NCBI RefSeq assembly: GCF_006065315.1 | Contig: NZ_CP040749.1 | Coordinates: 4,982,001 to 5,046,000 of the forward strand | Reading direction: 5' to 3' | DNA from: Aureibaculum algae | GTDB lineage: Bacteria; Bacteroidota; Bacteroidia; Flavobacteriales; Flavobacteriaceae | Length of the DNA stretch: 64,000 nucleotides | Part shown: piece by piece, positions 44,059 to 48,072 of the stretch | Position numbering within the stretch: position 1 is the first letter of the stretch | How the letters are laid out: each line of letters opens with the position of its first letter | Program-made: the position numbers and the translations under genes | The notes under the pieces: model-generated | What the model saw: only the letters and a program-made list of their open reading frames with translations | What the model was told of the DNA's origin: nothing | The model's database searches: none

Positions 44059-45270
44059 ATGAACTTAAGAGTTGTCTTATTTATTATAATCTCCATATTC
44101 TTCACGATTTCTTCGTTGGGGCAATCGAAATCTCAATTAGAAAAAAAGAGAAAACAACTACAAGAAGAAATTAAAGAAACGCAAAATCTTTTATTTAAAT
44201 CGAAAAAAGAAGCCGAGACCTTATTGTCTGAACTTGATGATTTAACTAAAATAATAAGCGTTCGTTCTCGCTTAATTAGAACCATTGACGAGGAGGCAGA
44301 AGTGCTGTCAGAAGCCATTGCAAAAAATGAAAAGGAAATCAATTCTTTAGAAAAAAATCTATCTGTTTTAAAAAAGGATTACGCCAACATGGTGGTGAGT
44401 TCTTATAAAAGTAAAAATAAACAAAGTCGCTTACTGTTTTTACTATCCTCAGAAAGTTTTACGCAAGCCTATAAACGTTTACAGTATATAAAACAATATG
44501 CTACTTATAGAAAACAACAAGGAGAACAAATAAAGATTTCTGCAAATAAATTAAGTGTCTTAACTGATTCTTTACGAAATAAAGAAGACGAAAAACGACT
44601 GCTTATTGCTATGCACACGCAACAAAAAGACAGCATTGGCCGTGAAAAAAACTCACAAGTAAGATTGGTTGGTAAAGTAAAGGCAAAAGAAAGAAAATAT
44701 ATTGCTCAAATAAAAAGCAAACAAGCTGAAGAGCGTAAAATAGACCGACAAGTAGACAAGATAATTGCTGCTGCCATTGCCAAGTCAAATAAAGGAGCTG
44801 GAAAAAAAGCATCTTCAGGCTTTCATTTAACACCCGAAAATAAAAAATTGGCTAGTAATTTAGTTGCTAATAAAGGTAAGTTGCCATGGCCAGTAAAAAA
44901 AGGTCTTATTATCAGAAAATTCGGAACTCAAAAACATCCTACCATGCCAGGTATCACCATTAACTCAAGTGGTATTCATATTGCAACAGAAAAAGGAGCC
45001 AAAGCTAGAGCTATTTTTAAGGGAAAAGTTTTGTCTATTCAATTACAATCTGGCAGAAAAAAAATGGTACTGATACAACATGGTAATTACATTACTGCAT
45101 ATAAAAACCTTGATGATGTATTGGTTAAATTAGGTGATAACGTTGATACTGGCGTTGAAATAGGCACAATTCATACGGATGCAATAAATGGCAAAACCGT
45201 TCTCATATTCAGCTTTATGAAAGAGATACACCCTCAAAATCCTGAATCTTGGATTGGTAAAATCCTTTAA
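44059..45270 (+). CDS. EnvC-like murein hydrolase activator (degenerate M23 domain)
   Basis: Exported protein of 403 residues: signal peptide ending near SLGQS, then long coiled-coil helices (about 23-270, Lys/Glu-rich) and a C-terminal LytM domain. In that domain the zinc motif H-x-x-x-D reads GIHIATEKG and the final H-x-H position reads LIFSFM. The metal ligands are therefore missing and it should be catalytically inactive. This is the EnvC/NlpD pattern, in which the protein activates amidases during cell separation. It follows the DUF4292 gene, has two possible -7 elements, and ends 4 bases before the convergent thioesterase gene. Confidence 0.93.
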   Translation: MNLRVVLFIIISIFFTISSLGQSKSQLEKKRKQLQEEIKETQNLLFKSKKEAETLLSELDDLTKIISVRSRLIRTIDEEAEVLSEAIAKNEKEINSLEKNLSVLKKDYANMVVSSYKSKNKQSRLLFLLSSESFTQAYKRLQYIKQYATYRKQQGEQIKISANKLSVLTDSLRNKEDEKRLLIAMHTQQKDSIGREKNSQVRLVGKVKAKERKYIAQIKSKQAEERKIDRQVDKIIAAAIAKSNKGAGKKASSGFHLTPENKKLASNLVANKGKLPWPVKKGLIIRKFGTQKHPTMPGITINSSGIHIATEKGAKARAIFKGKVLSIQLQSGRKKMVLIQHGNYITAYKNLDDVLVKLGDNVDTGVEIGTIHTDAINGKTVLIFSFMKEIHPQNPESWIGKIL

Positions 45271-45274
45271 AGAC

Positions 45275-45784
45275 TTAACCAAAAAGAGCCTTTAACTCAT
45301 CAGCTTCTTCAGGTTTCATTTTACCAGACAAAATTAAACTTAATTGCTTTCTGCGTAGAGCTCCTTCAAAACGTTCTTTTTCTAATTCTGTTTCAGGTTT
45401 AATAACAGGTACTTTTACAGGAGAGCCAGTTAAATCAACCGCTACAAAAGTGTAAATACCTTCGTTCACCTTTGATTTCTCACCACTCTCACGATCTTCT
45501 GTCCATACATCAGCATAAACTTCCATAGACGAGTTAAAAGCTCTAGAAACCTTCGATTCTATAATTAACACACTACCTACTGGTACGGCTTTATTAAAAG
45601 CTACGTGATTTACAGATGCCGTTACTACAATTCTATTTGAGTGCCTTTGTGCGGCAATACTACAAGCTCTATCCATTCTTGCTAAAAGCTCACCACCAAA
45701 AAGGTTATGTAAAGAATTCGTTTCTCCAGGCAGTACCATATCAGTTAATACCGTTAAAGATTCTTTTGGAGTTTTTATTTTCAT
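45275..45784 (-). CDS. Acyl-CoA thioesterase (hotdog fold)
   Basis: Hydrolyses acyl-CoA to free acid and CoA; cytoplasmic. The 169 residues form one hotdog domain of the YciA/BFIT type, with TNSLHNLFGGELLARMDRACSIAAQRHS near the start (catalytic Asn/Asp and His region) and AVPVGSVLIIESKVSRAFNSSMEVYADVW later. A -7 element (45815-45822) sits about 30 bases upstream. The gene is convergent with the EnvC-like gene (4-base gap). It is probably a housekeeping thioesterase for medium- or long-chain acyl-CoA; specificity cannot be read. Confidence 0.94.
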   Translation of the reverse strand: MKIKTPKESLTVLTDMVLPGETNSLHNLFGGELLARMDRACSIAAQRHSNRIVVTASVNHVAFNKAVPVGSVLIIESKVSRAFNSSMEVYADVWTEDRESGEKSKVNEGIYTFVAVDLTGSPVKVPVIKPETELEKERFEGALRRKQLSLILSGKMKPEEADELKALFG

Positions 45785-45814
45785 TTTAAAAAAGTTAATC
45801 GTTATTTAAGTAGG

Positions 45815-45822
45815 CAAAGATA
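45815..45822 (-). promoter_or_regulatory. -7 promoter element of the thioesterase gene
   Basis: TATCTTTG on the minus strand, 30 bases before the ATG at 45784. Confidence 0.62.
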
Positions 45823-45908
45823 GAACGGTAACTCTAAATAAATAGTATAATGAAAAAAATATTAATTGTAGTAAGTACGTCGCTTTATGGAAGGGTGTAG
45901 AATGGTCT

Positions 45909-46844
45909 TTACAAATCTTGAGTCAATAACCAGGCAGCAGCATTGGCTTCCGTTTCTCTAATTCTGTATAAGCTATTGATAGCGTCATTTATTTCGGTAT
46001 AACTTTCATAAGAAACTTGTGTCAGGCCCCATTTGTTAACACCTAAAATTTTAGCTTTGTAACCGCTTGTTATCAATTGATTAACCAAACGCTGTGCGTT
46101 TTCTGGATAACGAAAAGCACCCGCTATAATATGATAAGGTTTTTTATCTAACGTTACCTCTACACTTAATGAAGGTAAAGCTTCAGAAACAATAAAAGTT
46201 GCTTTTTCAATTTTAGTTTGCGTTTCACGCTCCTGTTCTTGATTAGCAATAATTTGCTGCTCTGAAAGGTTTTTTTGATAAATAGAATTTACACCTAATC
46301 CTAATAAAGAAAGCCCTATTACGAATATAGCTGCATATTTTAAAAACGCATTAGATTCTTTTTTCCTTTTTGCGTCTAACTGAACTGGTCTTGCAACAAT
46401 CGGTGGAGTTTCCTTAAGTAACGTTTCTCTTTTTACTTCAGGTAGAACAAAAGAAGACATTCCGAATGATTCCGTTAAATAATTAATCTCTGTTTGAGTT
46501 TCAAAGATTATAGTATCATTATTATCTAAAGAAAATTTACCTATAGATTCTAATGTTAAATCTGATTGCTTAATAATATCATACCATTGACCAACTTCAA
46601 ATTTTATAAAATTTAAAGCATGCTCATAAGGTACTTGATCTAACGCTGCAATATAATTTGCTAGTAAACCATCATTATTTTTTAAATGACTATTAAAAGT
46701 AATGAGCTTATGAGGAGGATAAAACGTTTTGGAATACGGACTGATAATTGCCGATTTTGTATTCGTTACAAAACCACCAAACCCCGGAACAATTACACAT
46801 TCGTAACGATATAATAAATCACTTATGTAATTACAAAGTCTCAG
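45909..46844 (-). CDS. HU (CCDC81-like) and SPOR domain protein with apparent CTG start
   Basis: Envelope-associated protein of about 311 residues. The N-terminal part (about 1-125) has the CCDC81-like bacterial HU pattern: NYISDLLYRYECVIVPGFGGFVTN, YPPHKLITFNSHLKNNDGLLANYIA, and YEHALNFIKFEVGQWYD. A Lys/Arg-rich linker, one membrane helix (about 168-187) and a C-terminal SPOR domain (about 236-311, PYHIIAGAFRYPENAQRL) follow. The frame has no ATG, GTG or TTG between the upstream stop at 46857 and codon 129. The homologous start falls on CTG at 46844, about 36 bases after a -7 element (46880-46887). A caller restricted to standard starts would report only 183 residues from 46460. SPOR domains bind denuded peptidoglycan at division sites. 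Confidence 0.85.
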   Translation of the reverse strand: MRLCNYISDLLYRYECVIVPGFGGFVTNTKSAIISPYSKTFYPPHKLITFNSHLKNNDGLLANYIAALDQVPYEHALNFIKFEVGQWYDIIKQSDLTLESIGKFSLDNNDTIIFETQTEINYLTESFGMSSFVLPEVKRETLLKETPPIVARPVQLDAKRKKESNAFLKYAAIFVIGLSLLGLGVNSIYQKNLSEQQIIANQEQERETQTKIEKATFIVSEALPSLSVEVTLDKKPYHIIAGAFRYPENAQRLVNQLITSGYKAKILGVNKWGLTQVSYESYTEINDAINSLYRIRETEANAAAWLLTQDL

Positions 46845-46879
46845 TTGAGTAAAATTTTAGGGGTTAAAGTCTAGTGCAA

Positions 46880-46887
46880 CAAATGTA
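46880..46887 (-). promoter_or_regulatory. -7 promoter element of the HU/SPOR gene
   Basis: TACATTTG followed by TTGCAC on the minus strand. It places transcription start near 46874 and supports translation of the N-terminal HU region rather than a start at 46460. Confidence 0.7.
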
Positions 46888-46968
46888 AAAAAAACTTTAG
46901 TTTAATTTAGCAATGGTTCACTTTTTTATTAACAAAGTTTGTATCTTAAAATTTTTAAAACCAAAAAA

Positions 46969-48072
46969 TTGAAAAACGAAGAACTACTTCATTTGTTAGC
47001 TCTAATTAATGCCAATGGCGTTGGTGATGTTATGGCTAAAAAATTAATAGCACATTGTGGTAGTGCAACAGCTATATTTTCAGAAAACAAACAAAGTCTA
47101 GCAAAAATTCAGGGCGTTGGAACTTCAATTACATATGCATTAAAGGACAAAACTATATTTGAACGAGCTGCAGAAGAAATTGAGTTTATAGAAAATAACA
47201 ATATTCAATACTCCTATTTTCAGGATGATGATTATCCTAATTACCTTAAACATTGTTTTGACGCCCCAATGTTCTTTTTTAAAAAAGGAAACATTGACAT
47301 TAACAATTATAAAACCATTAGTATAGTAGGTACGAGACAGATGACTAGTTATGGTAAATCTGTATTAGAGGAACTCATAATAAATTTAAAAGAATACAAT
47401 CCTGTTATTATTAGTGGCTTGGCCTATGGTGTAGATATTCATGCACATAAACTAGCCTTAAAACACAAGTTGCAAACCGTTGGAGTTTTAGCCCATGGTT
47501 TAGATAGAATTTATCCTACCCTACATAAAAAACAAGCTGATCAAATGCTTAAAAATGGAGGTTTAATTACTGATTTTTGGTCAAAAACAAATCCTGATAG
47601 AGAGAATTTTGTCAAAAGAAATAGAATTGTAGCAGGGCTATCGCAGGCCACAATTGTCATCGAATCTGCTGAAAAAGGAGGTTCACTAATTACGGCTGAT
47701 ATTGCTAATTCTTACAACAGAGATGTATTTGCCATACCCGGAAGAATTACAGATGCTTATAGTAGAGGTTGCAACCAGTTGATAAAAACCAACAAAGCGG
47801 CTTCCTTAACTTCTGCTAAAGATATAGCCTACATCTTGGGGTGGGAAAAGGATGATGAAAAGAAAAAAGCTATTCAGCAACAATTGTTCATTGAACTGAA
47901 TGACACTGAAAAACAAGTTTATAATTATCTTTTAAAAGAGGGTAAACAACAACTAGACATTATTGCATTACACTGTAACTTGCCAATTTTTAAAATTGCT
48001 ACTTTACTATTAACATTAGAGTTGAAAGGGGTTATTAAACCGCTCCCAGGTAAAATTTTTGAGGCTATTTAG
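46969..48072 (+). CDS. dprA: DNA-processing protein DprA
   Basis: Loads RecA on incoming single-stranded DNA during transformation; cytoplasmic. About 367 residues from a TTG at 46969. It has an N-terminal helix-hairpin-helix-like region (LALINANGVGDVMAKKLI), a Rossmann-like DprA domain with TISIVGTRQMTSYGKSV, ISGLAYGVDIHAHKLAL and PGRITDAYSRGCNQLI, and a C-terminal winged-helix part (about 295-367). The frame opens 10 codons earlier at another TTG, but the family start fits the later one. It is convergent with the next gene and overlaps it by 8 bases. Together with comEC at 39100 it suggests natural competence machinery. Confidence 0.95.
   Translation: MKNEELLHLLALINANGVGDVMAKKLIAHCGSATAIFSENKQSLAKIQGVGTSITYALKDKTIFERAAEEIEFIENNNIQYSYFQDDDYPNYLKHCFDAPMFFFKKGNIDINNYKTISIVGTRQMTSYGKSVLEELIINLKEYNPVIISGLAYGVDIHAHKLALKHKLQTVGVLAHGLDRIYPTLHKKQADQMLKNGGLITDFWSKTNPDRENFVKRNRIVAGLSQATIVIESAEKGGSLITADIANSYNRDVFAIPGRITDAYSRGCNQLIKTNKAASLTSAKDIAYILGWEKDDEKKKAIQQQLFIELNDTEKQVYNYLLKEGKQQLDIIALHCNLPIFKIATLLLTLELKGVIKPLPGKIFEAI

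Follow-up and report, generated by a model that had tools for sequence, protein, structure and literature searches.

The locus considered here raises the question of where translation begins in a gene whose reading frame extends far upstream of its first standard start codon. The gene lies on the minus strand of the window, a stretch of 64,000 nucleotides from the marine flavobacterium Aureibaculum algae, and encodes a protein with HU domains in its N-terminal part and a SPOR domain in its C-terminal part (HU-SPOR hereafter). In the standard list of open reading frames, HU-SPOR has 183 aa; the first ATG, GTG or TTG of its frame is the ATG at 46460 (46458–46460), and the 128 residues before it are missed. 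On the minus strand, the frame reads TAA (46859–46857) AAT TTT ACT CAA CTG AGA CTT TGT AAT TAC ATA AGT GAT, where the TAA is the upstream in-frame stop, and it remains open down to the stop codon at 45911–45909. An earlier note had claimed that the frame is open upstream of the ATG at 46460 without an ATG, GTG or TTG, and that the protein comprises 311 residues, not 183. Both points agree with the present analysis, in which the first standard start is codon 129 and the frame read from the CTG at 46844 (46842–46844) gives 311 codons and a stop codon (45909–46844). As judged from the sequence comparisons below, the gene almost certainly begins with this CTG.

The part of the frame upstream of the ATG encodes two HU domains, at residues 2–58 (46671–46841, minus strand; PF18174, 78.2 bits against a cut-off of 26) and residues 59–127 (46464–46670, minus strand; PF18175, 56.9 bits against a cut-off of 35), and the HU half is thus a real domain region, as had been proposed. 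A predicted membrane span follows at residues 167–185 (46290–46346, minus strand), where the 19-residue Kyte-Doolittle mean reaches its top value of 2.02, and the SPOR domain lies behind it at residues 234–292 (45969–46145, minus strand; PF05036, 29.8 bits against a cut-off of 21). The HU and SPOR parts belong to one frame, and the HU region is not a separate gene with a start of its own. Both the domains and their order are those of the Bacteroidota proteins that combine tandem HU (CCDC81-like) domains with SPOR (PF18174, PF18175, PF05036), and close relatives align with the window protein over its whole length. The protein has one match in its own genome, which is a single contig of 5.17 Mb; a search by sequence for a solved structure of a relative gave 0 matches. 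From its domain families, we presume that HU-SPOR binds DNA and septal peptidoglycan. The HU domain is expected in the cytoplasm and the SPOR domain in the periplasm, and the domain order suggests a tether linking the chromosome and the septal wall. Searches of the open-licence literature found nothing on HU-CCDC81, nor on the SPOR domain together with Flavobacterium, and nothing on topic, judged by title, on CCDC81 together with bacterial; no CTG-started HU-SPOR case was reported among the matches listed.

To read the start position in relatives, 60 genomes including that of A. algae were searched with the protein at E ≤ 0.001, and 57 gave a match, some of them weak or partial (e.g., G040, G053 and G057), with none in G014, G048 and G051. 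The 61 loci obtained were reduced to 51 unique ones by omitting two without a readable start (L016 at a contig end and L056, where the match begins at residue 28) and by removing 8 duplicates, these being the 8 of 31 named loci that are identical in coding sequence to unnamed loci. The aligned start codon is ATG in 39, CTG in 8, GTG in 3 and TTG in 1 of the 51. The position of the CTG at 46844 is therefore the start position of the family, as the earlier note had held and as the alignment with relatives that it recommended bears out, with one of the three standard starts there in 43 of the 51 loci. Within the genus, 16 of the 17 genomes contain a match, and the start is CTG in 8, ATG in 4 and GTG in 3, with one locus cut by a contig end and one genome giving no match. 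A further 20 loci, taken from weaker matches in other genera of the family or outside the family but within the order, all have ATG when the start is read as the ATG, GTG or TTG nearest the family position; three of them (L165, L166 and L180) also contain a TTG or GTG at a distance of one to three codons upstream.

In the tree, the CTG loci group together in a single clade (100/98) next to the ATG members of the genus, the GTG loci form a second clade (100/100), and the TTG is a single row, L038. All 8 clade members thus have the same near-cognate codon at the family start position, each of them coming from a different one-per-species genome; CTG was fixed in one Aureibaculum clade with a single origin. 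It is also found in L031 (A. luteum), L032 (A. flavum) and L033 (A. marinum), whose coding sequences are identical to those of the same-genus loci L002, L003 and L005, and in L058 (bin UBA2765), identical to one of the eight. A sequencing or assembly error, in which the codon would really be ATG, one base away from CTG, is already refuted by the same CTG in eight unique loci from eight separate assemblies, in addition to the four records just named, and we assign it practically no probability.

The conservation of the frame shows whether the region before the ATG is used. For the HU codons 2–128, comparison of L001 with L004–L008 gives dN of 0.018–0.20 and dS of 0.81–1.12; the HU codons are under purifying selection and, on the evidence of these substitution patterns, the HU part is translated, which would place the start at or near its beginning. 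It could be supposed instead that only the short protein with the membrane span and the SPOR domain is made from the ATG at 46460, which in A. algae is the sole standard start before residue 253, or that in this lineage the HU part has decayed to a remnant. The selection on the HU half speaks against a remnant, and the ATG is not a conserved start but an internal methionine in the clade alignment, where the column of residue 129 contains ATG in 3, TTG in 2 and TTA in 3 of the 8 members, and L004, L007 and L008 contain no in-frame ATG at all. We therefore consider this alternative very improbable. Standard starts in the eight CTG loci occur nowhere before residues 19–129, at positions that vary between species, and none of them could yield the conserved protein. 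Between −37 and the CTG, no ATG or GTG is present in any frame in the eight loci; in seven of them, a single TTG opens this region and is followed by a stop within 27 nt.

Among codons −6 to 40, a near-cognate codon is present in all eight CTG loci at codons 1 (CTG), 7 (ATA), 18 (ATT) and 34 (mixed Ile); of these, codon 1 is where the start was read in the 43 remaining loci. The eight loci have 21 columns in which all residues are Leu, and in five of these the codon itself is unchanged; four are TTA and the fifth is codon 1, which is thus the sole invariant CTG. Among the orthologues of the A. algae genome, CTG accounts for 409 of 13,315 Leu codons and TTA is the commonest. A point against a CUG start is that initiation at CUG is inefficient in E. 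coli, as stated in the available part of PMC11497404.

The most likely competing codon is the ATA at codon 7, with the CTG as an ordinary triplet. All 8 CTG loci have this ATA without variation, and the genus offers a possible precedent in infC, the gene for IF3. In 15 of 15 genus loci (L150–L164, with L156 at G000:C1:1494516-1494719), infC has a conserved ATA at the expected start and no ATG, GTG or TTG near the N terminus; it appears to use an ATA start and was taken as a positive control. However, ATA at codon 7 is common in ATG-started relatives as well and is not special to the clade, Leu at codon 3 is retained through CTT, CTC and CTA in the CTG clade, a hint that translation begins before codon 7, and it is the CTG that occupies the start position of the relatives. 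Initiation at another near-cognate codon is accordingly held to be unlikely, with little weight given to it. The infC gene starts with AUU in E. coli and is autoregulated by its own product. HU-SPOR resembles infC in that a near-cognate codon is retained over many species, whereas HU-SPOR is not an initiation factor and its CTG is limited to one clade of the genus.

The CTG start is not a general habit of the genome. Regions of 800 kb each from A. algae and G016 were compared through 403 non-overlapping reciprocal-best orthologue pairs, a comparison that covered about 15% of the A. algae genome, with infC lying elsewhere. HU-SPOR is the one gene among these pairs in which a long conserved stretch contains no standard start. 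In 34 of the 403 pairs, the first standard start is preceded on both sides by at least 8 aligned codons; the numbers are 132/64 for HU-SPOR and 21/21 for the next pair on the A. algae side. Fifteen of the 33 other pairs were inspected, and in them the upstream codons resemble conserved leaders that precede an ATG or TTG, shared or close by. One of the fifteen, with 10/28 codons and a shared ATG, is what we take to be triosephosphate isomerase-like. An unusual initiator tRNA was also rejected as a cause; the A. algae genome contains one exact match to the usual initiator anticodon-stem pattern, in a tRNA-Met with a CAT anticodon, and such a match occurs in 16 of 17 genus genomes (two in G012), being missing in G003, a CTG genome that is 68% complete. 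Avoidance of internal AUG as a compensation for a weak start was dropped. The mean number of internal Met residues is 0.75 in the CTG clade, 2.33 in the GTG members and 2.75 in the ATG members of the genus, and it is also low (1.31, with 10 zeros) in the 35 ATG loci of other genera and does not distinguish the clade.

The distance between promoter and start distinguishes the CTG clade from its relatives. A Bacteroidota −7 promoter element, TACATTTG, lies at 46880–46887 on the minus strand with a gap of 35 nt to the CTG, in line with the distance of about 36 bases given in the earlier note. In the part of PMC6847099 available, the start site in F. johnsoniae follows many of the −7 elements by 4 or 5 nt, and where a transcript has a probable promoter its leader exceeds 10 nt in 87% of cases. 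Assuming 4–5 nt after the box, the transcript would begin at about 46875 or 46874, which gives a predicted 5′ leader at 46845–46875 (minus strand). The TAnnTTTG box precedes the start by 4–7 nt in 38 of 39 ATG loci and 3 of 3 GTG loci (41/42), with 6 nt in each GTG locus; L030 has a one-base variant of the box with a gap of 5 nt. The gap is 31–36 nt in 8 of 8 CTG loci, and it is 26 nt in the TTG locus L038 from a Flavobacteriaceae bin, where the distant box is perhaps a separate gain of a leader. The mRNAs of the ATG and GTG relatives are therefore predicted to be nearly leaderless, and those of the CTG clade to have leaders of 26–32 nt. For 70 orthologues of the A. algae genome in which both the ATG and a box no more than 62 nt away are shared, the gap is 4–7 nt in only 5, which indicates that the usual HU-SPOR arrangement is uncommon in this genome and that the spacing in the CTG clade is ordinary. 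The ATG loci L009 and L010 also have the T-rich stretch leading to the box (AAGTTTTTTTTACATTTG), L012 nearly so, and L011 does not; the extra nucleotides therefore sit between promoter and start.

The accessible text of the review PMC4611024 states that leaderless mRNAs need AUG, for which GUG, UUG and CUG are no substitute, and the gain of a leader may therefore have permitted CUG. An mRNA with a 5′-terminal AUG is the arrangement predicted from promoter spacing for the ATG and GTG relatives, from which the CTG clade has departed; the window gene, with its 35 nt, lies outside the 4–7 nt spacing. The three GTG loci with a 6-nt gap are difficult to reconcile with a strict AUG requirement. The presence of a leader does not force a CUG start, because 4 of the 20 further loci combine ATG with a box at 19–33 nt; an exact box is found at 4–7 nt in 8 of the others and is missing in the remaining 8. 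The association between leader and codon is one event, or perhaps two if L038 is counted.

Several candidate signals in the leader were considered. The predicted fold of the leader and start region has a z of −0.31, and 66 of 200 shuffles were as good. A 3-pair hairpin containing the CUG was rejected, as by eye it is not retained in L004 or L006–L008, and so was a pairing of AACCCC in the leader with GGGG in codons 20–22, which by eye is absent in L005 and L008. No Rfam family was found at the gathering score in 45700–47200, and no sigma-70-type promoter or terminator in 46780–47050.

These results are best explained, with high though not complete confidence, by a 311-residue HU-SPOR protein made from the CUG at 46844 on a transcript with a leader of about 30 nt from the TACATTTG promoter, after a switch in one clade from a near-leaderless AUG. 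In the family as a whole, the mRNA would usually begin almost directly with its AUG. In one clade of Aureibaculum, some 26–31 extra nucleotides would have arisen between promoter and start, and the start would have changed once to CUG and been retained; leader first and CUG second is the likeliest order, where the leader would have relaxed the need for AUG. Transcripts would begin 4–5 nt after the box, and most likely an AU-rich leader with little predicted structure allows fMet-tRNA to be placed on the CUG with low efficiency, the CUG being read as fMet. It is plausible, as the earlier note had suggested, although more speculative, that the CUG keeps the protein level low, and a low dosage of a putative tether between chromosome and septal wall would make sense.

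This tuning step, and not the CUG start itself, competes with the view that the CUG, though in use, arose by neutral accident, in which the leader made a weaker start tolerable and drift fixed it with no regulatory part. The single origin of the CTG, the existence of leadered relatives with ATG and the lack of a conserved leader structure or Rfam family among those sought are consistent with drift. Against it, the CTG has remained unchanged over synonymous distances near 1, though one mutation would give ATG, GTG or TTG, and the published reconstructions, as far as the available part of PMC5622118 reports them, favour changes towards AUG. We would put a neutral accident a little short of an even chance.

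A more specific suggestion is that HU-SPOR is under initiation-factor control, by a leaderless AUG in the relatives and a leadered CUG in the clade, with IF3 antagonising both. IF3 discriminates against CUG. It also antagonises leaderless mRNA according to the text available of PMC4611024, in which only AUG, GUG and UUG are named as exempt and CUG is not listed among start codons. We regard such control as a rather unlikely possibility. If it holds, the CUG would preserve, beyond the loss of the leaderless arrangement, an old regulation in which a protein connecting DNA and envelope is tied to the level of initiation factor.

What is new here is the clade-wide fixation of CTG with a single origin, together with the accompanying shift in promoter distance. 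In the HU-SPOR relatives read here, the start is ATG or GTG, in most cases a short distance from the promoter, and in one case TTG, whereas the window clade has CTG behind a leader. Changes of a start from AUG to CUG are very rare, with 2 among 61,358 ancestral AUG starts in the available part of PMC5622118, and here such a change can be compared directly with close ATG and GTG relatives. For bacteria that lack Shine-Dalgarno sites, the clade offers a natural test of the trade-off between start codon and leader. A gene caller that accepts only ATG, GTG and TTG would drop the whole HU half of this conserved envelope protein in A. algae, and part or all of it across the clade.

The gene is neighboured by genes for an M23 peptidase (44059–45270) and a thioesterase (45275–45784) and by a divergent dprA (46969–48072). 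The start of dprA is most likely the TTG at 46969 rather than the upstream TTG at 46939; in 13 of 15 genus loci, a TTG is found at the former position or no more than one codon away, with ATG in L005 and GTG in L012. The intergenic region between dprA and the HU-SPOR gene contains an element, TTTGTTAATAA, at 46926–46936, which occurs as TGTTAATAA or TTGTTAA in many related loci and which resembles a DnaA box.
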